Virus record (IMG/VR): IMGVR_UViG_3300036832_000092
Coordinates: 1-52,898 of that record
From: a virus
DNA: 52,898 nucleotides
Reading direction: 5' to 3' (one strand)
Every line of letters begins with the position of its first letter. Within the stretch, counting starts at the first letter, position 1. Positions 3,958-23,182 of this stretch are shown here, one piece after another. The position numbers were made by a program, and so were the translations under genes. The notes beneath the pieces were generated by a model that worked only from the letters and a program-made list of their open reading frames with translations, made no database searches and was not told the origin of the DNA.

Positions 3958-6524
3958 CAGTTATTGGTGAAGCCTACATCATGATCAAGGGTGTGTCTGA
4001 GGGCGATTCCGGTGTAAGCAAAATTGAAGGACAAATTTCTGGCGTTGGTGCATCTGCCGAGAAATCAAGTGGTCGTGCCAGGGCTGCATTCAAGTCAATG
4101 GGCACAGCGCTTGGCTCTGCGTTTGGTCCGGCATTCCAGCCGATTCAAGAAGTCATGGACAAGTTTGATGAGCTTGATATCCATGGAGGAAAGCTCAAGG
4201 ATAATGTCGGCAAATATGCATTAGGCATTGGTGCTGCAATGACTGGCGCCGGTACACTTTTGACGACTGTGTCTGATAAAGACAAAGTATCAATGGGACA
4301 ACTTGAGCAAGCGGTCAAGAATGCCGGTGGCGATTGGGAGAAGTACAAGGACAAGACTGAAGAGGTAGTCAAATCACAAGAGAAATATGGGCATACTGCC
4401 GTTGAGACATCTGGTGCTTTGAACGATCTTGTGACCAAAACGCACAATGTACATGATTCATATGAGAATATGCAGTTGGTTGCTGACGTTGCCGCTCAGA
4501 AGAATACCAGCTTGTCGTCTGCTGCATCTATTGTAGCCAAGGTGATGAATGGTAATACAAAGACGCTCAAGCAGTATGGCATCACGCAAGACGACATCAA
4601 CAAGAAGCTTGATACTGGCGCAATTCATACCAAGAATCTCCAGATGGCCCAGGCATTACAAGGAGTGGAAGCAAACAAGAATGCGTTGGCTGCGCTGAAG
4701 ACTCGTGATGCTCGTCTCAAGGAGATATTGGCAACAACTCAAGACAAAGGCCAGCAAGAATTATTGCGCAAGGAGATAGCCAAGGATTCAGATACACGTT
4801 CAAAGCTAACAGATGCGATGGGCAAGAACAAGGATAGGGCAAGTGCACTAAAGGCAGAACTCAAGCAATTGACTACTGGCCAAAAGGCAGGGGTGGCCGG
4901 TACTGAGTTGCTTGCGGAGAAGATGAAGGGCCAAGCAGCAATCGCTGCTGATACATTCTCTGGTAAGATGAAGGAAGTCAGAGCTAAGATTGAAGATTTT
5001 ATTGGTACCGTTGGGCAAAAGCTTGGACCAGCGCTCCAAATAGCCGGACCTGCCATGATGGGCTTTGGCGCTATTGTTGAATCTGGAATTGTAGGCAAGA
5101 TCGGCAATGGTATTGGCAAGATCAAAGAATTCATGAGCATGGAGAAGCTTGCTGGCGTTGCGACAAAGGTATGGACTGGTATTCAAGCAGCATTCAACAT
5201 AGTCATGGACGCCAACCCAATTGTGCTTGTGGGAGTAGCAATCACTGCCTTGGTTGGCGTTCTTGTTCTGGCATACCTCAAGTTCAAGCCATTCCATGAT
5301 TTGATCAACGCCATTGCTAGTGACATCAAGAAGTTCTTCATTGGCGCATTTGATGTTGTAATCAACGCATTCCATAGTTTCATCAACGCATTTGAAACAG
5401 TTTGGAAGTTTATACTTGACATCGTCAAGAAGTATTGGCCAATCATCCTTGCCGTGATATTGCCATTCGTTGGCATTCCAGTATTGATCATGCAAAACTG
5501 GAACAAGATCGTTAGCTTCTTTGAGAATCTGTGGGGCACGGTATCACAAATCTTCCAGAATGTCGTTGCGTGGTTTGGTCATTTACCATCAAGGATCATA
5601 ACTGCGCTGGGCAATATCGGCACAAAGGTTTGGTCTGCAATTCAAGCAGGCGTACAACACTTTGCTGATAAATTCATTGCGGTTGGCAAATCGCTCATTT
5701 CATACTTTGGCAAATTCGCCAGTCGCGTAATCAGCGGCATCGGCAATCTTGGTGCAAAAATATGGACCAATGTCTCGACAGGCCTGGGGAATTTGACCAA
5801 TGCCTTCACCAACTGGATTGGCAGAGCAGTTGATTGGTTTGGTACATTGCCAAACAAGGTCGTCAATGCAATTGGTAATATTGGCTCTGCTATCTGGAGT
5901 TCGGTTACATCAGGCTTGAATAACTTCATCAGTCACGTCACAAATTGGACTAGCAATATCGCCAACTATTTCGGCAACCTGCCGAGCAAAATCATTTCAG
6001 CTATTGGCAATCTAGGTTCCAAGATTTGGAATGGAGTCAGGGGTGGCCTTAGCACTATCAAGACTAATATTGTCAACGCATTCTCTGGCGCCGGATCATG
6101 GTTGCTTTCAGCTGGTAGTGATGTGGTCAGTGGCTTCATTCATGGCATCGAGAATATGTTTGGTAGCGTTGTGGATACTGCCAAGAGTTTGATCTCGCAC
6201 CTTGGACATTCTGTGCTGCATGCATTGGGTATCGGATCGCCATCAAAGGTGTATCATGAGATCGGCAAGAATGTCGCTGCTGGTCTCATTCAAGGTCTTG
6301 ATCATAGTCATGGCGATGTTGGAAATGCTGGTCGCCGACTGGTCAATGCTGTGATCCACAAGGATGGTGGCACAATTGGTGTGCCTATGCATGCGAATGC
6401 TGCGGGTGCTGGTGGCGGTCGGGTAATCAACTTGTTCCCCAATGCAATCATTGACTTTGGCAAGGAAAGCCCAGCGTCAATTGTCCAGCGCTTGCAGAGC
6501 GCAATTGTGGCGAGTAGGCTGTGA
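3954..6524 (+). CDS. Tape measure protein
   Basis: 856 residues, the second-longest gene product after the polymerase and primase class and typical of a siphovirus tape measure; at ~0.15 nm per residue it would specify a tail of about 130 nm. The N-terminal 360 residues are helical and Lys/Glu/Ala-rich. A hydrophobic stretch (about residues 405-445, ANPIVLVGVAITALVGVLVLAY) is a likely membrane segment, with another near 490-510. Residues ~540-720 hold at least four diverged repeats around AIGNLGSKIW. The C-terminal part has a GIGSPSKVYHEIG motif common in tape measures. It overlaps the chaperone stop by 4 nt. Confidence 0.92.
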   Translation: MTVIGEAYIMIKGVSEGDSGVSKIEGQISGVGASAEKSSGRARAAFKSMGTALGSAFGPAFQPIQEVMDKFDELDIHGGKLKDNVGKYALGIGAAMTGAGTLLTTVSDKDKVSMGQLEQAVKNAGGDWEKYKDKTEEVVKSQEKYGHTAVETSGALNDLVTKTHNVHDSYENMQLVADVAAQKNTSLSSAASIVAKVMNGNTKTLKQYGITQDDINKKLDTGAIHTKNLQMAQALQGVEANKNALAALKTRDARLKEILATTQDKGQQELLRKEIAKDSDTRSKLTDAMGKNKDRASALKAELKQLTTGQKAGVAGTELLAEKMKGQAAIAADTFSGKMKEVRAKIEDFIGTVGQKLGPALQIAGPAMMGFGAIVESGIVGKIGNGIGKIKEFMSMEKLAGVATKVWTGIQAAFNIVMDANPIVLVGVAITALVGVLVLAYLKFKPFHDLINAIASDIKKFFIGAFDVVINAFHSFINAFETVWKFILDIVKKYWPIILAVILPFVGIPVLIMQNWNKIVSFFENLWGTVSQIFQNVVAWFGHLPSRIITALGNIGTKVWSAIQAGVQHFADKFIAVGKSLISYFGKFASRVISGIGNLGAKIWTNVSTGLGNLTNAFTNWIGRAVDWFGTLPNKVVNAIGNIGSAIWSSVTSGLNNFISHVTNWTSNIANYFGNLPSKIISAIGNLGSKIWNGVRGGLSTIKTNIVNAFSGAGSWLLSAGSDVVSGFIHGIENMFGSVVDTAKSLISHLGHSVLHALGIGSPSKVYHEIGKNVAAGLIQGLDHSHGDVGNAGRRLVNAVIHKDGGTIGVPMHANAAGAGGGRVINLFPNAIIDFGKESPASIVQRLQSAIVASRL

Positions 6525-13733: not shown

Positions 13734-14006
13734 ATGACCTACAACTCAACTGCTGATATGCATGACGACTTTGACTTGCATCGCAGGCTTGTCGCTTGCG
13801 CGAGTGAACAAGGCAAGGGCAATCCGGATGACGGTGCTGCGCAGCCCGACAATTGGGTTGCCTTGCACAAGTGGCCAATTGTGAACAGCCCTGGTTGGTC
13901 TGCCAAATATGACTCTGCTCGCGCGTCTGGCAATACATCGCCTGGTAGGGATGCGGCAGTCATCACTGACGACGACATCTTGGCGACGATTCAGCCGATG
14001 GCATAG
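13734..14006 (+). CDS. Small conserved phage protein of unknown function
   Basis: 90 residues, AGGGAG upstream. It is polar, with ACASEQGKGNPDD, several Trp, then GWSAKYDSARASGNTSPGRD and a final AVITDDDILATIQPM. I know small proteins of this pattern at the end of actinophage tail operons, but no function. It is the last gene before the 1.1-kb non-coding region. Confidence 0.6.
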   Translation: MTYNSTADMHDDFDLHRRLVACASEQGKGNPDDGAAQPDNWVALHKWPIVNSPGWSAKYDSARASGNTSPGRDAAVITDDDILATIQPMA

Positions 14007-14080
14007 TCATCATCATGTAGAATTGAAGATCGCAAAACATGCCTGGAGTCCATGGGGATTCCGGGCATTTTTGCTGCGCA

Positions 14081-14167
14081 TTCTCTACCATTTCGGTATG
14101 AATCCGCCATTTACAGTTTCTTGGAGCCCATCCCCATCGTGCCTGGTGGTCAGAGTTCTGCTGCGAG
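14081..14167 (+). repeat. Diverged duplicate block, copy 1
   Basis: TTCTCTAC (14081), TCGGTATG (14093), AATCCGCCA (14101) and TCTGCTGCGAG (14157) occur in the same order as in the block at 14331-14436, where the middle is longer and changed. The front part looks like a promoter-type block, but I cannot define -35 and -10 boxes with confidence. Confidence 0.6.
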
Positions 14168-14253
14168 CCTGTACAAGAGCCACTGTCGCGACACCTTTAC
14201 GGCGCATGTTCTCGCTGGCCTTCCGGCGCCTCACCCCGCAGATTCATGGCCCT

Positions 14254-14323
14254 TCATGTAATTCATGACAGCTTCACCAGCTTGGGCGAGAGGGTCAATC
14301 GACGTCTCCATGTAACTCATGGA
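14254..14323 (+). promoter_or_regulatory. CATG-N5-CATG hairpins 1 and 2
   Basis: TCATG/CATGA arms around TAATT (14254-14268) and TCCATG/CATGGA arms around TAACT (14307-14323). Both have a CATG on each arm and a 5-nt loop, the pattern that recurs through 17.1 kb. Confidence 0.6.
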
Positions 14324-14330
14324 ACAGCCT

Positions 14331-14436
14331 TTCTCTACTAAATCGGTATGACATATCTGAATCCGCCAAATCAGTTCTAAGCAGAAGTCGATCTTGCCCA
14401 TGGTATTAGGTCTGATGCCTCACGCTCTGCTGCGAG
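14331..14436 (+). repeat. Diverged duplicate block, copy 2, with AAGTCGATCTT element
   Basis: Repeats TTCTCTAC, TCGGTATG, AATCCGCCA and TCTGCTGCGAG of the block at 14081. In addition, 14363-14395 (CCGCCAAATCAG, then CTAAG, then AGAAGTCGATCTT) matches 31514-31545 with two substitutions and a one-base gap. A shared intergenic element 17 kb apart points to a regulatory site. Confidence 0.65.
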
Positions 14437-14661
14437 GCTGACGTTCGCATGCCGTAGCTGCGATTCTCGTCAGCGCCCCACCCGGCTGGCAGGCCTCGAA
14501 AGTAAGCATCACGTAAGCATTAGTTATGAAAGGCATAAGAAAACCAGCTTTCACACCAGGGTTTACAGTAGATTCAGTGTTGCGGACGTAGCGCAACTGA
14601 AGGTTACGGCCCGCTCGATCCCCCAATAATTTCATGCACGCAAGCGCAACGAGCCGTTCGA

Positions 14662-14682
14662 GCCCCATGAATTTCATGGGGC
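14662..14682 (+). promoter_or_regulatory. CATG-N5-CATG hairpin 3
   Basis: Perfect 8-bp stem GCCCCATG/CATGGGGC with loop AATTT. No T-run follows, so it is not a standard terminator. Weaker relatives with a CATG...TATG stem and a GAAA-type loop lie at 14743-14755 and 14876-14888. Confidence 0.65.
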
Positions 14683-14796
14683 GCGTTACGGACGGACTGT
14701 TGCGTCGCATACTTTCTCCCGAAACGGGTAAGCGAAGGATGTTCATGCGAAATATGGGACTAGCTAGGCGCTCTGCGAAGAGTAGCTCCGAAATTC

Positions 14797-14919
14797 CATG
14801 CGGGACATGCGCGCTACGGGTGGGCACAAGTCGATCTTGTGCAGCAGACCGAACCACCTCCTGACGTAAGGATTCATGAGAAATATGCGAGGAACTCAAA
14901 AGGTACCATGCGGGCCATG
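14797..14919 (+). promoter_or_regulatory. CATG-N5-CATG pair 4 and 5 with an AAGTCGATCTTG stem-loop
   Basis: CATG pairs five bases apart occur at 14797-14809 (loop CGGGA) and 14907-14919 (loop CGGGC). Between them, 14824-14842 forms a 7-bp stem GCACAAG/CTTGTGC with loop TCGAT and contains AAGTCGATCTTG. A partial copy, TCGATCTT, lies at 14921-14928. Confidence 0.55.
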
Positions 14920-14987
14920 ATCGATCTTTGTCAATAAAATAGTGTGATTCTTCTCATTTCCATGAGGTCGATGAGAGTTGCCTCAGG

Positions 14988-15083
14988 TTGGGGTGTTGTG
15001 AGTCCGACTAATAGGCGGATACCCCAATCTCTGGTTGCCTTATCGACAAGGCAGAAAATGCGAACTAGTAAATTGCTAGTCGC
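14988..15083 (+). promoter_or_regulatory. Structured leader of the gene at 15112
   Basis: Three stem-loops in series: TTGGGGT (14988) with ACCCCAA (15021); TGCCTT/AAGGCA (15036-15053), followed by GAAA; and ACTAG/CTAGT extended by GCG/CGC with one bulged A (15060-15083). The GTTGCC...GGCAGAA hairpin recurs in the next two leaders at 15586 and 15885. Confidence 0.6.
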
Positions 15084-15111
15084 AAGCAAAATTACCATGG
15101 AGGTAATGAGA

Positions 15112-15549
15112 ATGTTCGAAATCACTGGCAAGCAGGTCATGGCGTCCGGCGCTGGTCACAACTACCACCTGTTCCGTAGCTGCTACGGTAACAAGTTGGG
15201 GCAGGGTTACCATGTCTCCGTTGGTAATGACATCTACCGTACGCACCGCGTATCGGTCGAAACTGCCATCGAGCAGGGTTACTTCGCATGCCGCGTATGC
15301 TATAAGCGTGCGGGGCTGACGGTCCCGGCTGCGGCCGACCGTGTGAAGGTCCGTGACGCTAAGCGTGCGGAACGTCTTGCGCGTAAGGCTGAGATTGAGG
15401 CTGCCAAGGCTGAGAACGTTGCCGCTCGTGCGGCGACTGACGCTGCGGTCGATGTGATCAAGGCTGCGAACGTTGAGGTTGACGTCAACGCTCTGATTGC
15501 GTCCCTGATCGACATGCTAAAGCTGGAGACTCTGGCCACTACGGTCTGA
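15112..15549 (+). CDS. Cys-containing small protein with Ala/Lys-rich helical tail, unknown function
   Basis: 145 residues from ATG 15112, with GGAGGT 7 nt upstream; the open frame extends back to 14944, but that part lies in the structured leader. The N-terminal ~65 residues contain RSCYGNK and YFACRVCYKRAGL, possibly a metal-binding C...CxxC site. The rest is a long charged Ala/Lys/Glu helix, perhaps a coiled coil. Codon use is noticeably more G+C-rich than in the flanking fibre genes, similar to the capsid gene, which suggests strong expression. No family recognised. Confidence 0.7.
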   Translation: MFEITGKQVMASGAGHNYHLFRSCYGNKLGQGYHVSVGNDIYRTHRVSVETAIEQGYFACRVCYKRAGLTVPAAADRVKVRDAKRAERLARKAEIEAAKAENVAARAATDAAVDVIKAANVEVDVNALIASLIDMLKLETLATTV

Positions 15550-15561
15550 GTGCGTTGCGTT

Positions 15562-15601
15562 TGGCCATGCTAGTCATGGTCATTCGTTGCCTACTCAGGC
15601 A
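15562..15601 (+). promoter_or_regulatory. Two-hairpin leader of the gene at 15631
   Basis: First hairpin: TGGCCATG/CATGGTCA arms (one G-T pair) with loop CTAGT, 15562-15582. Second: TGCCT/AGGCA with loop ACTC, 15588-15601, followed by GAACTACC. The ribosome site lies about 20 nt downstream. Confidence 0.65.
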
Positions 15602-15630
15602 GAACTACCCTACTAGGAATGAGGAATCAA

Positions 15631-15840
15631 ATGGCAAACGTGCTCAGAGGTGTCGTAAAGGCATATCAAGACTGGGACTATCTCGACGTTGACGAGGAAG
15701 TCTCAGGTGAGCAAGTTGACGTTTCGATCTTCGCAGTCGTTGGGGAATTTGCGGGCAAGGAATTTGCCCATGATATCCCTGAGGGTTCCAAGATCGAATG
15801 GGACGCCGACTGGGAGCCTACCTACCAACTCAAGCAGTAA
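15631..15840 (+). CDS. Small acidic protein, unknown function
   Basis: 69 residues from ATG 15631, GAGGA five bases upstream; an ATG at 15619 lacks spacing to a ribosome site. Strongly acidic (YLDVDEEVSGEQVDVS, EWDADWEPT), with Trp and Tyr residues. No family recognised. It has its own two-hairpin leader, as does the next gene. Confidence 0.65.
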   Translation: MANVLRGVVKAYQDWDYLDVDEEVSGEQVDVSIFAVVGEFAGKEFAHDIPEGSKIEWDADWEPTYQLKQ

Positions 15841-15859
15841 ATCCGGTTGCGTTGCGTAA

Positions 15860-15900
15860 TCTACATGCCTAGCATGTAGGTTGCGTTGCCCACCCGGGCA
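15860..15900 (+). promoter_or_regulatory. Two-hairpin leader of the gene at 15927
   Basis: First hairpin: CTACATG/CATGTAG with loop CCTAG (15861-15879; inner C-G can pair to leave loop CTA). Second: TGCCC/GGGCA with loop ACCC (15887-15900), followed by GAATTACC. The order and the GTTGCC...GGCAGAA frame match the preceding leader. Confidence 0.7.
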
Positions 15901-15926
15901 GAATTACCGACTGAAGGAGAATCAGA

Positions 15927-16154
15927 ATGGCCATGGAGCCCAAGCCCAAGCCTGAGAAGTCGTTCAGCATTGACGGCATTGAAGTCAAGGTTGGCATGAT
16001 GTTCTGGGACTATGACTTGCGCCGTTGCCAGGTGCTAGCGGAGGAGCCATACAACCCATACGATGGTGTTGTTTGGTTCCGTACCACCACTGGTATGTTT
16101 GATGGTCAGCGCCTCTGGCGTCGCCACCCATCTACTGGTAAGCCCTGCTACTGA
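15927..16154 (+). CDS. Small basic/aromatic protein, unknown function
   Basis: 75 residues, ATG 15927 with GAAGGAGA upstream. Starts with a Lys/Pro-rich stretch (EPKPKPEKSF), then FSIDGIEVKVGMMFWDYDLRRCQVL and YDGVVWFRTTTGMFDGQRLWRRHP, which look like a small beta barrel. No family recognised. It stands between two structured leaders. Confidence 0.65.
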   Translation: MAMEPKPKPEKSFSIDGIEVKVGMMFWDYDLRRCQVLAEEPYNPYDGVVWFRTTTGMFDGQRLWRRHPSTGKPCY

Positions 16155-16164
16155 ACACTCAACA

Positions 16165-16209
16165 GAATGTACATGCTAGTCATGTACATTCGATTGTCCG
16201 TTCAGGACA
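16165..16209 (+). promoter_or_regulatory. Two-hairpin leader (strongest CATG-N5-CATG hairpin)
   Basis: First hairpin: perfect 11-bp arms GAATGTACATG and CATGTACATTC with loop CTAGT (16165-16191). Second: TGTCC/GGACA with loop GTTCA (16195-16209). The loop CTAGT is identical to the one at 15570. This begins the 174-nt leader of the gene at 16329. Confidence 0.75.
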
Positions 16210-16252
16210 GAAAGGATTCTCAAGCCTGATAGGCCTGAGGATTCGGTCTTGC

Positions 16253-16305
16253 CCTGCCAGTCCGGCAGGAGTAAGGTCAGCGCTAGCAAGGAGATTCCTT
16301 GCTAG
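16253..16305 (+). promoter_or_regulatory. Further leader hairpins before 16329
   Basis: CCTGCC/GGCAGG with loop AGTCC (16253-16269), then a perfect 10-bp stem CTAGCAAGGA/TCCTTGCTAG with loop GAT (16283-16305). The second ends 12 nt before the AGGAGGAA ribosome site, so it could influence initiation. Confidence 0.65.
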
Positions 16306-16328
16306 GCATGCGATCCAGGAGGAACGCA

Positions 16329-16910
16329 ATGACTGAAGTGAATGAGGAGATCAAGGCAACCGCAGAGTCGGATGCCCCAGTCCCCGCAACGTCCGACGGT
16401 GCGGAAGGGGCACCTGCCGACAGCACTCCCGTGGTCAAGACGCCCAAGTCTTGGGCCGACCGTATCAAGACGAGTCTTGAGAACGGACGGCAGAACGCGC
16501 GGTACATCAAGTTCAAGGAGTTCATCGCCGATGAATCCAATGGTGAAACGGTCGCTGACCTGGACACCATCGCTCTGGTGATGACCTTGATCAACGGATG
16601 GCGTGCGACTCCTGAGTACAAGGAGTGGGACGCAGAATACCGTGCGACGACTGGTGGAGGCACGACGCCCAAGGACGTCAAGCCCAAGACCAAGGAGGAA
16701 GCGCAGGCACTGGTCAAGAAGGCAGAAGAGAGTGCTGCCCGACAGGCCAAGGCCAAGGCCACTGCTGAGGCTCGCGCAGAGCGTGCGCGGCTGATGCTGG
16801 CTGAGCTGGAGCAGGAGGCTGCTGGCGAGGGTGTCGAGGCTGATGAATCCGATGAGGACATCACCGACGACACTGGCGACGCTGACGATTCCACGGATGA
16901 AGCGTTCTAG
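16329..16910 (+). CDS. Acidic low-complexity protein, unknown function
   Basis: 193 residues from ATG 16329 (AGGAGGAA upstream). N-terminal acidic/Ala/Pro-rich segment, a middle part with SWADRIKTSLENGRQNARYIKFKEFI and LVMTLINGWRATPEYKEWDAEYR, a Lys/Ala/Glu/Arg-rich helix (~130-165), and a very acidic end (DESDEDITDDTGDADDSTDE). G+C-rich codon use, like its neighbours. The layout suggests a small folded core between disordered acidic arms, perhaps a nucleic-acid mimic or protein-binding factor; no family recognised. Confidence 0.7.
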   Translation: MTEVNEEIKATAESDAPVPATSDGAEGAPADSTPVVKTPKSWADRIKTSLENGRQNARYIKFKEFIADESNGETVADLDTIALVMTLINGWRATPEYKEWDAEYRATTGGGTTPKDVKPKTKEEAQALVKKAEESAARQAKAKATAEARAERARLMLAELEQEAAGEGVEADESDEDITDDTGDADDSTDEAF

Positions 16911-16931
16911 CAGACGCTAATTCCCATGGTG

Positions 16932-16968
16932 CGGATGGGGCCTGGTCGAACTGACCTGGCCCTATCCG
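16932..16968 (+). promoter_or_regulatory. Long stem-loop
   Basis: Arms GGATGGGGCC (16933) and GGCCCTATCC (ends 16967) pair over 10 bp with one G-T; after a T-T mismatch, GGTC/GACC close a GAACT loop, and one outer C-G pair adds to the stem. No T-run follows. It lies in the 184-nt gap between 16910 and 17095. Confidence 0.65.
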
Positions 16969-16997
16969 GGCATGTACCTTGATCTCAACAGGTCGAA

Positions 16998-17041
16998 ACT
17001 CCATGCACGGCATGTGTATGGAGTCCGCATGTAAGGCATGC
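16998..17041 (+). promoter_or_regulatory. CATG-N5-CATG hairpins before 17095
   Basis: CATG pairs with 5-nt spacing at 17002-17014 (loop CACGG) and 17028-17040 (loop TAAGG). The first can also fold as ACTCCAT/ATGGAGT (16998-17024); the second forms GCATG/CATGC (17027-17041). Confidence 0.6.
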
Positions 17042-17094
17042 GCTGATGATGACCAAATGTCTCAGTCAGAACATCGAACCAGGGAGAATCCCCA

Positions 17095-17670
17095 ATGGAA
17101 AGTGAGAAACGTCCCATCACGGACAGTCAGATCAAGTATCTGACTGACCTTGCTGGCTCACGGCAGATGGAAGATGCCGACAGGCTATTCCTACTGGAGC
17201 ACATGAAAGACTTCGACACCAAGTTGGCGTCAAAGTGGATTGATGCGCTCAAGATGCTGCCGCCAAGGCCCAAGCAGTTGCCGAAGCCCAAGTGGTCCGT
17301 GCCTGACGTGATCCCAGATGGTCGTTATGCGATCCTGAATCCCAGTAAGGCATGGGTATTCTTTCGCATTCTGACCAAGGAAGATCGTCAGAACGGACTG
17401 GAGTACAGGATTGTCCAAAAGATCCTTGGGGCGCCTGGTGATTTCAGGTACGTCAGAGTCACCGCAGAGGAGTGGAACCTTGCGATCACAAAGATCGCAG
17501 TGGATCCAGGCCTGTTCTCGCAGATGTTCGGCATCCAAGTCGGTGTCTGCGGGGTGTGTGGCAGTCCGCTGACGGACCCCACTTCAATCAAGTTGGGTAT
17601 CGGCCCAATTTGCGCTGCGAAGTATGGGTTATTCGGCGACGATGAGGCTGACGAGGCTGACGATGAGTGA
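17095..17670 (+). CDS. DUF6011-like zinc-ribbon protein
   Basis: 191 residues, AGGGAGA upstream. N-terminal helical part (RPITDSQIKYLTDLAGSR), a beta-rich middle (DGRYAILNPSKAWVFFRI, EYRIVQKILG) and a C-terminal GVCGVCGSPLTDPTSIKLGIGPICAAKYG, a Cys motif common in phage and actinobacterial proteins of the DUF6011 type, followed by an acidic end. The CxxC...C set may bind zinc. The molecular role is unknown; such proteins sit in early phage regions. The next gene starts within its last codons. Confidence 0.65.
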   Translation: MESEKRPITDSQIKYLTDLAGSRQMEDADRLFLLEHMKDFDTKLASKWIDALKMLPPRPKQLPKPKWSVPDVIPDGRYAILNPSKAWVFFRILTKEDRQNGLEYRIVQKILGAPGDFRYVRVTAEEWNLAITKIAVDPGLFSQMFGIQVGVCGVCGSPLTDPTSIKLGIGPICAAKYGLFGDDEADEADDE

Positions 17671-17920
17671 GCCGCAGAAGTTCCAGTCAATCGAACTGGA
17701 CTGCCCACCTGGCATGGTGCGCCCAAATGATCTGTTCGACGCTGTCGTCAAGGATCTGGGCATCGAGCCCATATCACGTGATGTCCCATGTATGTTTGGA
17801 CATTCTGAGTGGTTCTTCAGAATCGACAGACCTACATGGGAGGCTAAGTATCAGCCAACAATCAAGGAACGTGTGGAGCGCCTGTACAATTCGGGAGTGA
17901 TCAGATACGGCAGCTGGTAA
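17663..17920 (+). CDS. Small protein, unknown function
   Basis: 85 residues from ATG 17663, overlapping the preceding stop by 8 nt. Contains LDCPPGMVRPNDLFDAVVKDLGI and FGHSEWFFRIDRPTWEAKY, then a helix (ERVERLYNSGVIRYGSW). No family recognised. Translational coupling to the zinc-ribbon gene suggests a shared function. Confidence 0.6.
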   Translation: MSEPQKFQSIELDCPPGMVRPNDLFDAVVKDLGIEPISRDVPCMFGHSEWFFRIDRPTWEAKYQPTIKERVERLYNSGVIRYGSW

Positions 17921-17976
17921 CCATGTTTGGCCGCAGACGATAGTGCTGCGGTCATTCATGGCTATCAAGGTGATAG
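17921..17976 (+). promoter_or_regulatory. Two-hairpin leader of the gene at 18001
   Basis: First hairpin: CCATG/CATGG outer arms (17921-17925 and 17957-17961), a TT/TT internal loop, then TGGCCGCAG/CTGCGGTCA (one G-T pair) and a 9-nt loop. Second: CTATCA/TGATAG with loop AGG (17962-17976). The ribosome site follows. Confidence 0.7.
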
Positions 17977-18000
17977 TCAATGGAAATGAGGAAGGGTCAA

Positions 18001-18264
18001 ATGGGACAAGACTCGCTCAGAGTTGAGGGTTTGTCGGTGGGACGACTGTATCGCATTATCTACAGGAATCCTTTGGACAAACTACCACGGCAGATGATTG
18101 CTAAGTACATGGGTCAGGAGGATAGCGCAGACACGCTGTTCTTCAATCTGCGCCCAATTGCCGGCACCCAAGCGATCAAGATCGAATGGATACAACAGCT
18201 ATGGGAGACAGACCAAATCGTCGCTGCACCAACGATCTATCGTGGCGAAACGCGAGTGTTCTGA
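18001..18264 (+). CDS. Small basic protein, unknown function
   Basis: 87 residues from ATG 18001, with GAGGAAGGG upstream; the ATG at 17980 has no ribosome site. Contains VEGLSVGRLYRIIYRNPL and a beta-rich middle (TLFFNLRPIAGTQAIKIEWIQQLW). Not recognised. It lies between two structured leaders. Confidence 0.6.
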   Translation: MGQDSLRVEGLSVGRLYRIIYRNPLDKLPRQMIAKYMGQEDSADTLFFNLRPIAGTQAIKIEWIQQLWETDQIVAAPTIYRGETRVF

Positions 18265-18275
18265 GCAAGGATGTT

Positions 18276-18317
18276 TGGTCATGTTGTGATACATGGCCAT
18301 TCACCCCTGTTCAGGGG
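18276..18317 (+). promoter_or_regulatory. Two-hairpin leader of the helicase gene
   Basis: First hairpin: TGGTCATG/CATGGCCA arms with one G-T pair and an 8-nt loop (18276-18299). Second: CCCCT/AGGGG with loop GTTC (18304-18317). GAGGAGA and the start at 18355 follow about 30 nt later. Confidence 0.65.
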
Positions 18318-18354
18318 AAGTTCCCATCAACCCATGGAGAATTGAGGAGAGTCA

Positions 18355-20295
18355 ATGGAGGAACAGCAGGAACAGAATCACCAGGCTATACCTGGTGGCT
18401 CAATCGCTGCGGCTATAGCGGCCAAGACTGCCGCTGAGAAGCCCATAGATCCCAAGTGTTACTTGGACATCGAGAATGGGTTCATCAGCGTCAAGTCAAG
18501 GTACTCCGCTATGGCCAACGTCGTGTATCGACAGCAAGGTGGTCGTTGGAAGGATGACGACAACGGCAAAAGATGGCTGCTACCTCTGACGATGGAGACA
18601 TGCCAGGCGCTTCGCAAGCATTGGAAGCAAGACTTGGTGATCTCCAAATCCCTCAACCAATGGGCGAGAGGTGAGAAGGTCAGACAAGAGGCTGTTGCAG
18701 CACTTCACAAGGCAGAAAGTGCAACGCTGAATGAAGTCTCGGTCACGCACCCCGCATTAGCGAAAGCCATGGATAGCAGAACTTACCAACAGGTTGGTGC
18801 TGCGTTCATTGCTCATCAAAGGTCTGTGCTCATTGCTGATGAGCCTGGCTTGGGCAAAACGCTTGAAGCTATTGCGGGAATTGTCGAGGCTGGGTGTTGG
18901 CGAGGATTGATCCTTGTCGCTGCGCCGCTCACCAGTCTACGGACTGTGTGGGAACATGAGCTGTCGAAGTGGGCTCCTGAAGCCCATGTAGTGATTGGTG
19001 TTCCCAAGAAGCACGATAATGCTGCTGCGCGCATTGACTTGCAGAACAAGTTCATTGAGCACTACGCAGAGAATCCTCTACAACCGCATATCTTGGTTGT
19101 GAATCCTGAGATGCTTCAGGCTCGCAAGCAAGACAACTTTGTCCTGTTCACAGCAGTTGAGTGGCAGGCAATTGTGGTCGATGAAAGCCATAAATACTTG
19201 GCTGGCATTGAGTCTGCACGCAAGCATACGCAGACTGGTAAAGGATTGCTTGATCTCAAGCTAGCAGAAGATGGGGTCAAGATCGCATTGTCGGGAACAC
19301 CCATGCGCGGCAGGCCGTGGCACTTGTGGGGTACGTTGCACTGGTTGCGTCCCAAGCAGTACACTGCGGCATGGAGATGGTATGAACGATACTTCCTCAT
19401 GACCAAGGGATGGGGCGGCAGTCAAACGATTGGTGCGCTAAACCCATGGCGACAAGAGCAATTCTACAAGTCGCTTGATGACATCATGCTTCGCAGAACA
19501 AAAGCTGAGGTCGTCAAGGAACTACCTGCCAAGCAGCACATCGACATCATGGTCGATATGACCAGTTCCCAAGAGGCCATGTACAAGTCTATGGCAGCCG
19601 ATGCTGCCGCAGAGTTGCTAGGCATGGACTTTGGGGATGATGATGCTGGGAGTATCTCGGCTGTTGGTGTCCTTGCCATCATGACACGCCTCAAGCAGTT
19701 TGCGGACTGCGCATGGAGAGGCGCGAACATTGAGGGCATGGTACCTACAGCAAAGATGCATCCTTTGCATTCTGGCAAGACTGCGGTCATTGAGGATATG
19801 CTCATCGAACGTGGAATTGCTGGACCTATGGATGAGCGGGATGGCAATCACAAGATCGTTATTGCCAGCCAGTTCACCAAGGTCATCGACTCGCTGGAGG
19901 AATACCTTGATGGCATTGGAGTCGATTGCCTCAAGATTACCGGTGGCGTGAATGAGCAACAACGTGTATCGGCTACCCAACGGTTCCAGTCTGAAGGTGG
20001 ACCGCGTGTAATGCTCATGAATACCAAGGCGGGTGGCGTATCGATCACGCTCGATGCGTTCTGCGATGAGCTCATCATTATCGATGAGACATGGACGCCA
20101 GACGATCAGGAGCAGTTGGAAGATCGTATCCACCGGGTGAGTCGTATTCACCAAGTGACGATCTACAGGCTGCTGACCAAGGAGTCCATCGACGAATACA
20201 TTGCGGACATCATTGCTCGCAAGGATTCAATCCAGAAGCAGATTCTGGATGGTCGTCGTGGAGTCGAGAACATAGCTGCTGCGATCGTGCGGTAG
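18355..20295 (+). CDS. SNF2-family helicase with HARP-like N-terminal region
   Basis: 646 residues, GAGGAGA before the ATG. A likely HARP-like segment (about residues 38-92: FISVKSRYSAMANVVYR, GGRWKDDDNGKRWLLPL) precedes an SF2/SNF2 core: Walker A ADEPGLGKT (~161-169), APLTSLRTVWEHEL, DESH box VVDESHKY, motif III LSGTPMRGRPWHLWGTL. The second RecA lobe has IASQFTKVIDSLEEYL and the arginine-finger region QLEDRIHRVSRIHQVTIYRLL. Such proteins translocate on or anneal DNA and may help replication restart or recombination. It is preceded by a two-hairpin leader and followed by an operator-like region. Confidence 0.85.
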   Translation: MEEQQEQNHQAIPGGSIAAAIAAKTAAEKPIDPKCYLDIENGFISVKSRYSAMANVVYRQQGGRWKDDDNGKRWLLPLTMETCQALRKHWKQDLVISKSLNQWARGEKVRQEAVAALHKAESATLNEVSVTHPALAKAMDSRTYQQVGAAFIAHQRSVLIADEPGLGKTLEAIAGIVEAGCWRGLILVAAPLTSLRTVWEHELSKWAPEAHVVIGVPKKHDNAAARIDLQNKFIEHYAENPLQPHILVVNPEMLQARKQDNFVLFTAVEWQAIVVDESHKYLAGIESARKHTQTGKGLLDLKLAEDGVKIALSGTPMRGRPWHLWGTLHWLRPKQYTAAWRWYERYFLMTKGWGGSQTIGALNPWRQEQFYKSLDDIMLRRTKAEVVKELPAKQHIDIMVDMTSSQEAMYKSMAADAAAELLGMDFGDDDAGSISAVGVLAIMTRLKQFADCAWRGANIEGMVPTAKMHPLHSGKTAVIEDMLIERGIAGPMDERDGNHKIVIASQFTKVIDSLEEYLDGIGVDCLKITGGVNEQQRVSATQRFQSEGGPRVMLMNTKAGGVSITLDAFCDELIIIDETWTPDDQEQLEDRIHRVSRIHQVTIYRLLTKESIDEYIADIIARKDSIQKQILDGRRGVENIAAAIVR

Positions 20296-20351
20296 AGCTC
20301 ACATTGACCTCATGGAAATGGGAAGAATCAAAAAGCCAACAGTTACATGTG

Positions 20352-20420
20352 TCGGACAGCGTCCGATTCGTCCTGGAAAGTCGATCTTGTCTTGGAAGTA
20401 AAATCAGAGTAAGATCGACT
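20352..20420 (+). promoter_or_regulatory. Operator-like region before 20450
   Basis: TCGGAC/GTCCGA stem with loop AGC (20352-20366) contains GGACAGCGTCC, whose exact reverse complement GGACGCTGTCC lies at 21691-21701 beyond the next two genes. AAGTCGATCTTGT (20378-20390) is followed by its inverted copy AAGATCGACT (20411-20420). GTCCGATTC at 20361 belongs to the repeats found at 21840. Confidence 0.6.
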
Positions 20421-20449
20421 CATGGAAATTCCACATGAAAGGAATGATG

Positions 20450-21214
20450 ATGGACGAACGAACATGGGAGCAAAACGCTCTTGAATTCGCTGAACTGGAC
20501 AAGGGTGAGGGCTGGCCATTTGCCATCCTTGTCGCTTGCTCAGTTCAACCAGGCAAAGTTGGTGGTCGTCGTTCAAATCTCGATCGAGATTTGAAGGTTG
20601 ACGCAACAACATTTGCAGCTAGGGCAGAAACCAGCAATGATCGCATCCTCAGGTATTACAGGGCATGGCAGAAAGCTGCATTGAATGGCTATGTACCCAA
20701 TGCTGATACGCTGAAGCCAAGTGATGTCGATAACGTCAAGTTGCCGACACTTGCTTGGTCAAAGAGTGATGCTGCGCCTGGTGAGCCTTTTGCCTACTCA
20801 GCATCCGCAGAAGCAGCGGCCACAAAGCCAACTACTGCCAAGCAGGTGCAGAAGGCACTTGATTCATTACCACCTGTTCAACGTGATCAGGTTGTGAATC
20901 ATGCGCTTGGGCAAAGGGCTGCTGAAAGTCGCAAGGCCAATGCAATTATTGCTGAAGAGCAAGAATTGCGGATGATGGCTGAAGATCGCAAGATTCTTAC
21001 CAATGAGGATCTTGGTATCACAGGCAGTAGTTTCCCAGAGTTCGAGGCCATGGCTGTTTACAGTCATAACATGCTGTTGATCAGGAAGCGTTCCAAGGAA
21101 CTGATCAAGATCCTTAGCAACATTGCCGTTGTGAAGGATGAGAAAGCAGTTGCGTTACTTGGTGATCTTGTTGATGCGATTGCGCCTCATTTGGCGGTGA
21201 AGGACGATGCGTGA
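20450..21214 (+). CDS. Putative DNA-binding or replication-accessory protein
   Basis: 254 residues from ATG 20450; ATGs at 20444 and 20447 are alternatives, and AAAGGA at 20438-20443 favours the last two. N-terminal part DATTFAARAETSNDRILRYYRAWQKAALNG, then PNADTLKPSDVDNVKLPTLAW, is a pattern I recall in actinobacterial phage and plasmid proteins thought to bind DNA. Residues ~130-190 are a charged Ala-rich helix; the rest is helical. Operator-like sequences flank this gene and the next, so autoregulation is plausible but unproven. Confidence 0.55.
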   Translation: MDERTWEQNALEFAELDKGEGWPFAILVACSVQPGKVGGRRSNLDRDLKVDATTFAARAETSNDRILRYYRAWQKAALNGYVPNADTLKPSDVDNVKLPTLAWSKSDAAPGEPFAYSASAEAAATKPTTAKQVQKALDSLPPVQRDQVVNHALGQRAAESRKANAIIAEEQELRMMAEDRKILTNEDLGITGSSFPEFEAMAVYSHNMLLIRKRSKELIKILSNIAVVKDEKAVALLGDLVDAIAPHLAVKDDA

Positions 21215-21668
21215 GACAATTCAGCGGCAATGGACTAGACTGGAGTATAAGCTAGCTCATAACATTGTCGACATGGTCAAAGATGCTGGTGTTGCTGGGG
21301 TGATATTCAAGCCAACGCTTGTGTTGCATGATATCATGCCCCTTGCTGTGATGATTGCAAGCAAGGAAAAGCCAGGCTATACATTGATCAATGATGATGG
21401 ATGGTACGTCATCACGAATGATAAGCATCAGATATTCAAGGTGCTGTTCAATCGTCTCAAAAAGGTAGATACCGCAATCAGAAGGATTCAAGCTGAAATG
21501 CAGCCACTGGGCTACAGCATGGAGACTATGGAGGTGATGACTTCAATCAACTCTATGATCCATGCAATCTCATCATCTGAATTGGCGGAATGTATTGCGA
21601 ATCTACTAGATGAATACAAAGCAATAGAAACAGTTTGGGAAACAACCAAGCGCGAAGTGAGTAACTAA
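21207..21668 (+). CDS. Helical protein, unknown function
   Basis: 153 residues, ATG overlapping the previous stop by 8 nt. Contains MIASKEKPGYTLINDDGWYVITNDKHQIFKVLFNRL split by loops, and a long helical second half (DTAIRRIQAEMQPLGYS, ELAECIANLLDEYKAIETVW). No family recognised. It is coupled to the preceding gene, so the two may act together. Confidence 0.6.
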   Translation: MRETIQRQWTRLEYKLAHNIVDMVKDAGVAGVIFKPTLVLHDIMPLAVMIASKEKPGYTLINDDGWYVITNDKHQIFKVLFNRLKKVDTAIRRIQAEMQPLGYSMETMEVMTSINSMIHAISSSELAECIANLLDEYKAIETVWETTKREVSN

Positions 21669-21839
21669 CCTAATCGACATTGGACAAATCGGACGCTGTC
21701 CTGCACGTGTAAACGAATAAGCATGGGGTGTATGGGGATGCCAAATCCTCATGCGCTCCATGTTGTTTTGCCCAATTGTCTACTTTGCCTATAGGCAAAT
21801 AGAGCAAGCGCAGAATGTCCATGCCTACCATGGGTCCAC
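21669..21839 (+). promoter_or_regulatory. Intergenic hairpins and palindromes
   Basis: GGACGCTGTCC at 21691-21701 (inverted copy of 20354-20364); GGGGAT/ATCCTC arms with GCAT/ATGC outside (21721-21757); a perfect 16-bp palindrome, TTTGCC-TATA-GGCAAA (21784-21799); and a CATG-N5-CATG hairpin CCATG/CATGG with loop CCTAC (21819-21833). I see no convincing gene here. Confidence 0.6.
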
Positions 21840-21914
21840 GTCCGATTCACCCTGAATTTAGTCCGATTTCGCCCGATTTCTCCCCTTTACTAAACGCGAT
21901 TGGTACGGTAGAAT
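21840..21914 (+). promoter_or_regulatory. Putative sigma70-type promoter with phased operator repeats
   Basis: TTTACT (21886-21891), 17-bp spacer, TAGAAT (21909-21914). Upstream are GTCCGATTC (21840), GTCCGATTTC (21861) and GCCCGATTTC (21871), spaced 21 and 10 bp, that is on one face of the helix. TTTCGCCCGATT (21867-21878) recurs at 40303-40314. It would drive the operon starting near 21960. Confidence 0.6.
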
Positions 21915-21959
21915 CAGTCTGGAAAGCATGGGAAAATCGAGGCGATTGGATAGAGACAC

Positions 21960-22196
21960 TTGACGTACAGAATTGCTATCAACCATGGCTCGCTTGAGAA
22001 TCCTTTGGATAGGGTAGCAATGCGAGCGGTGCGGAATGCAACTGACCCCTTCTGTACTGCTATGTATGGGATCAATGAAGTGACGACATACTGTATTGCG
22101 GACGGTGGACTGGAGCCTGTGCTCACGGCCATCGCCCGCAATCGTCGCATTTCATGGCTGGTCCAAGTCAACTATCACACCGATGTGGAGGAGTGA
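21960..22196 (+). CDS. Small protein, unknown function
   Basis: 78 residues from TTG 21960; ATG 22020 with ATAGGG upstream (58 residues) is an alternative. Contains IAINHGSLENPLDRVAMRAVRNATDPFC and IARNRRISWLVQVNYHTD. First gene of the operon after the putative promoter. The start is uncertain and no family is recognised. Confidence 0.45.
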   Translation: MTYRIAINHGSLENPLDRVAMRAVRNATDPFCTAMYGINEVTTYCIADGGLEPVLTAIARNRRISWLVQVNYHTDVEE

Positions 22197-22200
22197 GCAC

Positions 22201-22659
22201 GTGGAGTTCCGTACATTCGACTCAATTGAGGACGCCATGGCTGTCATGCGAGAATCCGCTCAAGCCAATGCGGATTCTATGCGTGAGTGGCAGTGGAAGA
22301 TCGACTTTGGAGATTACTTCTTCAAATCTGTGCCCATGGCCCACAAGCAGATTCTGATCTTCGGCAAGGTTCTGTCCATGGCTGAATTGGACATTGAGGA
22401 GCTTGAGACGCTTCGCTCAATCAAGGCAGCCAAGAATGAGGGTCGATATTACGTCAAGGCACATTCTGTGATCGTGCCTGATGGTGAGTACGGATTCACA
22501 GGCGGATCAACCATGTACCCCATCAGTGAACGCGAGTTTGAGATTGCGCGTGAGAACAAATGGAAGCAAGGGAATTGGTTCCCACCTATGCTGACTGACA
22601 TTCTCAATCGCGTGATCACCGCAGAGCAAAATGGCGGATTCGTAGTGTTGCCTGACTGA
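22201..22659 (+). CDS. Conserved-looking protein, unknown function
   Basis: 152 residues from GTG 22201 with GAGGAG upstream; the open frame extends upstream to 22096 but overlaps the previous gene. Contains EDAMAVMRESAQANADSMREWQWKIDFGDYFF, IFGKVLSMAELDIEELETLRS and YGFTGGSTMYPISEREFEIA. Mixed alpha/beta. Not recognised. Its stop overlaps the next start (TGATG). Confidence 0.65.
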   Translation: MEFRTFDSIEDAMAVMRESAQANADSMREWQWKIDFGDYFFKSVPMAHKQILIFGKVLSMAELDIEELETLRSIKAAKNEGRYYVKAHSVIVPDGEYGFTGGSTMYPISEREFEIARENKWKQGNWFPPMLTDILNRVITAEQNGGFVVLPD

Positions 22660-22817
22660 TGGATAATGGATGGCAGTGCGAAGAGTTCATCCAACCAGAG
22701 CAACGATGCTTCAGGCATTGGTCGCATATATGGAAGGGTAAGTTCATCTGTAAGTTACATTACAGTAACAAGCTGTTTTGGGAGAATGGCCCAAGCAGTA
22801 ACGACAACAGAAAGTGA
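22659..22817 (+). CDS. Short Cys/Trp-rich protein, unknown function
   Basis: 52 residues, start in a TGATG overlap with the previous stop and stop in a GTGA overlap with the next start, which makes it a convincing small gene. Sequence begins MDNGWQCEEFIQPEQRCFRH and continues with WSHIWKGKFICKLHYS; three Cys and several aromatics. A competing frame from 22666 is Ser/Thr-rich and fits neither junction. Confidence 0.6.
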   Translation: MDNGWQCEEFIQPEQRCFRHWSHIWKGKFICKLHYSNKLFWENGPSSNDNRK

Positions 22818-23182
22818 ACCCAGTGGCTACAAAGACCAAACGACACCTGAAGGTTGTCGGCAGTAGGGTCCAAATCACCAAGATCGTCGACCAGATGCCG
22901 TTTGAGTATCTGACTTGCCGAGACATGGGACACGCATGGAAGCCATACACAGTTGACCGTGAGCGTCGCATGTGGATGTCTACAATGCTATGCGGTCGAT
23001 GTGGATCATTCAAGGTTCGCACGATAAGCTCACAAGGCAGATTGGTCAAGTCAAACATGCAATACGCAGATGGATACCTCATTGCGGGGTGGGGCGTGAT
23101 GTCGGCAGAAGACAAGGCCAAGATGCGGCTCGCTCTGCTCACTCGACTTGCTGAAGAATATGGAAGTGCCGCAGAGGCATGA
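22814..23182 (+). CDS. Zinc-finger-like small protein
   Basis: 122 residues, GTG in a 4-nt overlap with the previous stop. The pattern YLTCRDMGHAWKPYTVDRE then MLCGRCGSFKVR (C...H...CxxC) is a small zinc-finger type seen in many actinophage genomes. The C-terminal 40 residues (SAEDKAKMRLALLTRLAEEY) are helical. Probably binds DNA or RNA, but no partner is known. Confidence 0.65.
   Translation: MNPVATKTKRHLKVVGSRVQITKIVDQMPFEYLTCRDMGHAWKPYTVDRERRMWMSTMLCGRCGSFKVRTISSQGRLVKSNMQYADGYLIAGWGVMSAEDKAKMRLALLTRLAEEYGSAAEA

Follow-up and report, generated by a model that had tools for sequence, protein, structure and literature searches.

A type II hammerhead ribozyme and recurrent predicted irregular hairpins at early gene junctions of an uncultivated tailed phage

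The stretch of DNA analysed here as a whole, called the window below, is a 52.9-kb IMG/VR record (IMGVR_UViG_3300036832_000092) of a tailed phage that is closest, among its named relatives, to actinophages. Its early region, at 15.0-18.4 kb, includes a gene for a protein of 145 amino acids (aa; 15112-15549), further small genes, a gene at 17095, a 94-aa gene at 17980 and a helicase gene at 18355, and it is preceded by a noncoding stretch of 1.1 kb (14007-15111). An earlier note on this DNA had described, in intergenic DNA, one family of hairpins built on two CATG tetranucleotides five bases apart (CATG-N5-CATG). We find that two of these sites belong to a putative type II hammerhead ribozyme, which is part of an almost unbroken series of elements at gene junctions, and that five or six other junctions of the early region carry a distinct and apparently undescribed RNA hairpin, predicted by folding, which we call E.

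A scan of the window located all eleven sites listed previously (14255, 14309, 14666, 14797, 14907, 15566, 15864, 16172, 17002, 17028 and 21820), together with three more (21750, 22236 and 26042), giving 14. With 403 occurrences of CATG, and 6.6 pairs in shuffles of the whole window, the former estimate of about one expected pair in the whole genome was wrong. The clustering itself was upheld. A start-to-start distance of nine is the commonest between CATGs (14 pairs versus 1-7 at any other distance up to 40), and 14007-17094 contains 10 pairs where local dinucleotide shuffles predict 0.12. Taken separately, 14007-15111 and 15550-17094 have five pairs each (0.037 and 0.061 expected, respectively), a count matched by none of 4000 local shuffles in either case.

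CATG is palindromic, so any two copies form a stem of 4 bp. Perfect extension past this stem amounts to 0 bp at six sites, 1 bp at three, 2 bp at two, and 3, 4 and 7 bp at the remaining three; the claim that most sites extend into stems of 5-11 bp was thus overstated, and each site needs an explanation of its own. At 17002 the true stem lies in a different register (ACUCCAUGCAC/GUGUAUGGAGU). Sites 22236 and 26042 have no stem, and we agree with the earlier note that the latter is coincidental. Rather than making up a single family with conserved geometry, the sites divide into three or more groups that are unrelated to one another. The proposed RNA stem-loop reading is right for the sites at 15.5-17.1 kb, which lie in leaders; those at 14255-14907 and 26042 are not members.

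Sites 17002 and 17028 are stem III and stem I of an element at 16991-17055 (plus strand) which, by its core, structure and covariation, is a type II hammerhead ribozyme. Its parts follow one another as GGUC (the 5' strand of stem II), GAAA, the stem III hairpin, GUC, the stem I hairpin, CUGAUGA, an extra U and GACC (the 3' strand of stem II). The CUGANGA core strand is present as CUGAUGA and aligned to the model described below, the GAAA strand stands in GGUC-GAAA-C, and the NUH cleavage triplet between stems III and I is GUC. The minimum free energy structure has three stems, with I and III closed and II open. A covariance model made from 25 copies of relatives, the window copy being left out, finds 16991-17055 at 53.7 bits with an E-value of 4e-17, and the same model, applied unfiltered to the whole window, returns this hammerhead only, the next match reaching 9.9 bits. 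Loop I (UAAGG) has no clear complement in the 3' tail, as judged by eye. The element shares with Hammerhead_II (RF02276) the CUGAUGA and GAAA core, the GUC triplet, closed stems I and III, the open stem II and an intergenic position in phage DNA, and is a new member of this known class. Type II hammerheads in bacteria, as well as hammerheads in phage intergenic regions, have been reported (PMC3088659).

Relatives, all uncultivated phages, were obtained by a search with the helicase (contigs L005, L006 and L007, 55-58% identical), with L033/L034 and L035 added later. Leaders between their genes repeat the order GGNC-GAAAC-hairpin-GUC-hairpin-CUGAUGA-GNCC, which is that of a type II hammerhead with I and III closed and II open. 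A model search of the genomes found 12 hammerheads in L005, 6 in L006, 8 in L007 and 12 in L033, arrays in which almost every junction between early genes has its own copy, and two of the L033 copies exceed the gathering score of Rfam Hammerhead_II (41.2 and 39.3 bits). The alignment of 25 copies from four phages comprises 17 pairs, that is 425 pair cells; 99.8% of the cells are paired, and 14 of the 17 pairs show two-sided changes (144 such cells). The covariation score is 0.89, compared to 0.20 for shuffled alignments and 0.03-0.13 for slid structures. Copies were chosen by their core sequence and stem II, many also by four pairs of stem III, so stem II and the checked stem III pairs are biased towards success; stem I was outside the selection, and it is paired in every cell.

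The compensatory variation of arms that the earlier note had suspected is thus found in the hammerheads of relatives, though CATG-N5-CATG does not define the family. The same stem reads GTTG-N5-CAAC, ACCC..GGGT or CATG-N5-CATG among relatives, and since stem III loops are closed by CATG, GTTG or other sequences, CATG is not a conserved feature. What stays constant are the core nucleotides and the position at gene junctions. At least 120 stretches with one exact type II hammerhead form were found among viral contigs (loci L045-L164), so this ribozyme is common in uncultivated virus contigs, including the 406-kb L050. Searches for further relatives gave little: the 145-aa protein brought up no new ones, the 94-aa protein only the L005 contig once more, and a scan of GTDB genomes none. 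Neighbours found through a tail protein have tail genes in common with the window but not the early region, except L173, which is the same as L035. In L035, leader hairpins with the loop GGTGCAAATCC occupy 5147-5260 and 5790-5830, at a junction where relatives have hammerheads; the loop is reminiscent of twister-sister, but Rfam gave no support for such an assignment of 5130-5250.

The window has no hammerhead at the junctions flanking the 145-aa gene, between the next small genes, or before 17980 and 18355. It is at these places that the E elements, all on the plus strand, are predicted. The typical E is an irregular hairpin of 22-28 bp with nearly symmetric arms, whose 3' strand can alternatively fold into a hairpin of its own. 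Going inwards, about six outer pairs and, in most cases, a single mismatch lead to 2-3 pairs; after another mismatch come 1-3 pairs, often two mismatches, and an apical stem of 7-15 bp. In the alternative fold, the stretches that immediately flank the outer 3' arm on its two sides pair with each other (UGCC/GGCA, UGUCC/GGACA, CCCC/GGGG or UGCCUU/AAGGCA). E0 (14967-15054; fold z -4.8), which has no CATG pair and was assessed by the base-pair permutation test, lies upstream of the 145-aa gene, with outer arms GUCGAU...AUCGAC and the 3' hairpin UGCCUU[AUCGAC]AAGGCA. E1 (15544-15601; fold z -6.6), recovered in descriptor scans, stands between the 145-aa gene and the next one and has the apical stem GGCCAUG-CUAGU-CAUGGUC and the 3' hairpin UGCC[UACUCA]GGCA. 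The apical stem of E2 (15842-15900; fold z -5.8) is CUACAUGC-CUA-GCAUGUAG, with UGCC[CACCCG]GGCA as 3' hairpin, and that of E3 (16151-16210; fold z -4.8) is GAAUGUACAUG-CUAGU-CAUGUACAUUC, with UGUCC[GUUCA]GGACA. The CATG pairs at 15566, 15864 and 16172 are thus the apical stems of E1, E2 and E3. E4 (17920-17960; fold z -5.6), before the 94-aa gene, is a shorter relative of E1 and E5 with a UUU-GGCC..GGUC-AUU core, and E5 (18262-18315; fold z -3.1), also seen in descriptor scans, precedes the helicase gene and has outer arms UGAGCA...UGUUCA and the 3' hairpin CCCC[UGUUCA]GGGG. In the window set, the outer strands pair in 29 of 30 cases (p 0.008 in the permutation test) and the 3' hairpins in 20 of 20 (p 0.017). 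A perfect 10-bp hairpin (CTAGCAAGGA-gat-TCCTTGCTAG, 16283-16305) lies shortly upstream of a 193-aa gene, beside two more strong hairpins.

E could not be assigned to a described RNA. An unfiltered search of the whole window with the hammerhead model finds no CUGANGA or GAAA blocks and no stem II in the E elements, and the absence of CUGANGA rules them out as degenerate or permuted hammerheads, even though a hammerhead-like function, as in the permuted forms SGC and CSG (PMC10085705), was considered. Rfam, applied to 13900-22900 with E-values up to 5, has no family for E, only chance-level snoRNA matches, and among the plausible Rfam matches in the window and relatives there are hammerheads only. 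A DNA pattern for the E sequence returned single scattered matches in IMG/VR and no related element. A pseudoknot model, which we had preferred initially, was displaced by the nested hairpin with its alternative 3' hairpin; the latter is favoured because of E4, the symmetry of the arms and the recurring mismatch spacing.

The placement of E is seen best by comparing orthologous junctions. The gene at 17095 has a hammerhead in front of it in the window as well as in L005, L006, L007 and L033. Downstream of the 145-aa gene, these same four relatives have a hammerhead and the window has E1, and the hammerheads that precede the counterparts of 17980 and 18355 in L005 are replaced by E4 and E5. The reverse case exists too: within the hammerhead array of L006, an E at 4706 precedes a 78-aa gene, whose counterpart in L007 (55% identical) follows a hammerhead at 5990. 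Two E-like junction elements each were found in L124 and L104, unrelated contigs fetched solely for their hammerheads, and two more in L050, another unrelated carrier. In most of the E-like cases outside the window, the outer 5' arm runs into the stop codon of the gene upstream or directly adjoins it. When long hairpins were collected from the gaps of hammerhead contigs with no 3' hairpin required, eight of 41 had a hairpin on the 3' side and three had its mirror image on the 5' side, an excess that is suggestive but not decisive. The gap-restricted descriptor at a score of at least 19 gave seven real matches versus 0.75 in shuffled and four in antisense sequence; as this is just moderately above the controls, we treat E outside the window as suggestive.

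At orthologous junctions one phage has a hammerhead where another has E, and the most economical reading is that each of the two would cut the early transcript at the boundaries of its genes. We consider it rather probable that the early stretch is transcribed as one polycistronic RNA with processing elements at its junctions, in which the hammerhead cuts itself and E most likely does the same job. In this scenario, the hammerhead ahead of gene 17095 would cleave after GUC; the upstream mRNA would then carry the stem III hairpin at its 3' end and the downstream one the stem I hairpin at its 5' end, so that the CATG pairs at 17002 and 17028 would be hairpins on the two new ends. At five or six other junctions, E would stand in place of the hammerheads of relatives and be cut within its long hairpin, with RNase III, as in phage T7, as the simplest agent. 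The freed 3' strand might then refold into the small hairpin on the new 5' end and thus protect it. If the cut fell between the apical stem and the 3' hairpin, a closed hairpin would be left on each end, as is the case with a type II hammerhead.

Several observations weigh against this reading. E4 has no alternative 3' hairpin around its outer strand, little sequence is common to the E elements, and most of those outside the window were found with structure-requiring descriptors that have a substantial random-match rate. A sigma-70-like promoter was looked for in the region and not found. The window hammerhead differs from Hammerhead_II by the single additional U that separates CUGAUGA from stem II, a position at which insertions of 1-2 bases are known in hammerheads (PMC10085705), and Rfam misses it in 13900-22900 even at E-values up to 5, leaving the RF02276 gathering score of 37 bits unreached; that score is a curation threshold and not a structural feature, and most copies in relatives, which bear arrays of 6-12, fall short of it as well.

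As to what cuts E, RNase III is the ordinary candidate and self-cleavage the novel one. In the early mRNA of phage T7, RNase III sites are irregular hairpins of about two helical turns located between early genes. E shares this form and position, as its irregular helix of 22-28 bp between genes is long enough for about two turns of double-stranded RNA, and near-symmetric arms and the spacing of mismatches are also in keeping with RNase III-type processing hairpins. E differs from the T7 sites in that symmetry, in the recurrence of the spacing and in a 3' strand able to form a second hairpin, whose complementarity RNase III alone does not explain. We find processing of this kind quite possible, if somewhat short of an even chance. 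A new class of self-cleaving ribozyme, or a permuted known one, cut between the apical and 3' hairpins and with its outer strand forming a pseudoknot with the 3' hairpin loop, seems distinctly doubtful to us. It would fit with E being found at orthologous hammerhead positions in both directions, with a layout of two hairpins and a junction like that of type II hammerheads, and with 3' hairpin loops that complement an upstream strand in five window elements, comparable to the P1 loop and junction strand of pistol (PMC4604425). The nested long hairpin also accounts for this complementarity, and is the only form compatible with E4; no conserved catalytic core is evident, CUGANGA and any Rfam match are absent, and in E1, E2 and L050 the outer strand and the 3' hairpin share some bases and may thus be alternatives. 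Pistol ribozymes (RF02679) are common near phage genes (PMC4604425) and have a hairpin loop that pairs with a distant strand as a pseudoknot, as may be the case in E, but E would need a circularly permuted order of parts, and inspection of about 11 elements by eye revealed neither an equivalent of stem P2 nor a conserved core like the ten conserved nucleotides of pistol. The broader idea, that E represents an undescribed structured and possibly self-cleaving RNA class exchanged with type II hammerheads by unrelated phages, which would build early operons from interchangeable cutters, we regard as unlikely.

Other explanations concern the CATG sites and hairpins as such. A dimeric DNA operator repeated over a regulatory region would agree with five sites at 14007-15111, where 0.04 are expected, and with two pairs of near-identical site copies, yet the spacer differs across groups, the downstream sites are accounted for by RNA elements, and the equivalent region of relatives does not share the sites; for the sites as a whole we hold it to be improbable. 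Chance combined with CATG richness could produce the 6.6 pairs expected per window and the stemless sites 22236 and 26042, but 10 pairs in 3.1 kb exclude it for the cluster as a whole and at least five sites are explained functionally, and hence very little weight is left to it. No more can be given to transcription terminators or attenuators: the intergenic stems are strong, but neither the E elements nor the hammerhead have a T-run behind them, and terminator-like matches, no commoner than in shuffles, do not fall on any of these elements on the coding strand.

The five sites at 14007-15111, which are two pairs of near copies and one long hairpin, are statistically real, but they belong to a separate 1.1-kb regulatory region and not to the junction system. 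The two related sites within 14255-14321 (CATGTAATTCATG and CATGTAACTCATG; no strand assigned) could possibly be a DNA operator. Site 14666 is held in a long hairpin at 14644-14703 (plus strand; fold z -6.4), a descriptor match that resembles E but lies away from gene junctions. The other pair, CCATGCGGGACATG (14796) and CCATGCGGGCCATG (14906), spans 14796-14919 (no strand assigned), lies within a diverged local duplication and has no stem past CATG. Diverged local duplications (14081-14351 and 14742-14890) occur in this noncoding stretch before the early genes, and its small open reading frames have no Pfam match. Farther downstream, site 21750 is the 3' arm of a 20-bp hairpin at 21720-21765 (plus strand) rather than a separate hairpin, and the same gap contains a short hairpin at site 21820. 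A further repeat, GTCGATCTTG, occurs 33 times in the window with at most one mismatch (3.6 expected), dispersed, for example at 14387, 14830, 20380 and 29469, and CAAGATCG is among the most frequent 8-mers in the leaders of L005, L007 and L033 and, to a lesser degree, of L035. The two may possibly represent a repressor or origin site common to the group, driven in part by codon use.

The earlier note named as nearest analogue the start-associated repeats of some mycobacteriophages. Those of cluster K are short and asymmetric DNA repeats whose sequence is fixed, and they lie upstream of gene starts. Apart from the position upstream of phage gene starts, nothing in the window resembles them: its sites have only the CATG halves in common, with differing spacers and flanks, and the stems are variable RNA stems. 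The novelty lies in E and in the use of the hammerhead within an almost complete series of junction elements. Searches of the literature, in a collection with few subscription papers, brought up no such hammerhead arrays and nothing that matches E. What hammerheads do in bacteria and phages is a long-open question, and ribozyme arrays between nearly all early genes would make one role, that of junction cutters of a polycistronic mRNA, testable. Orthologous junctions with either a hammerhead or E offer a natural replacement test, and the list of E elements provides concrete candidates for a new RNA-processing element or ribozyme class.

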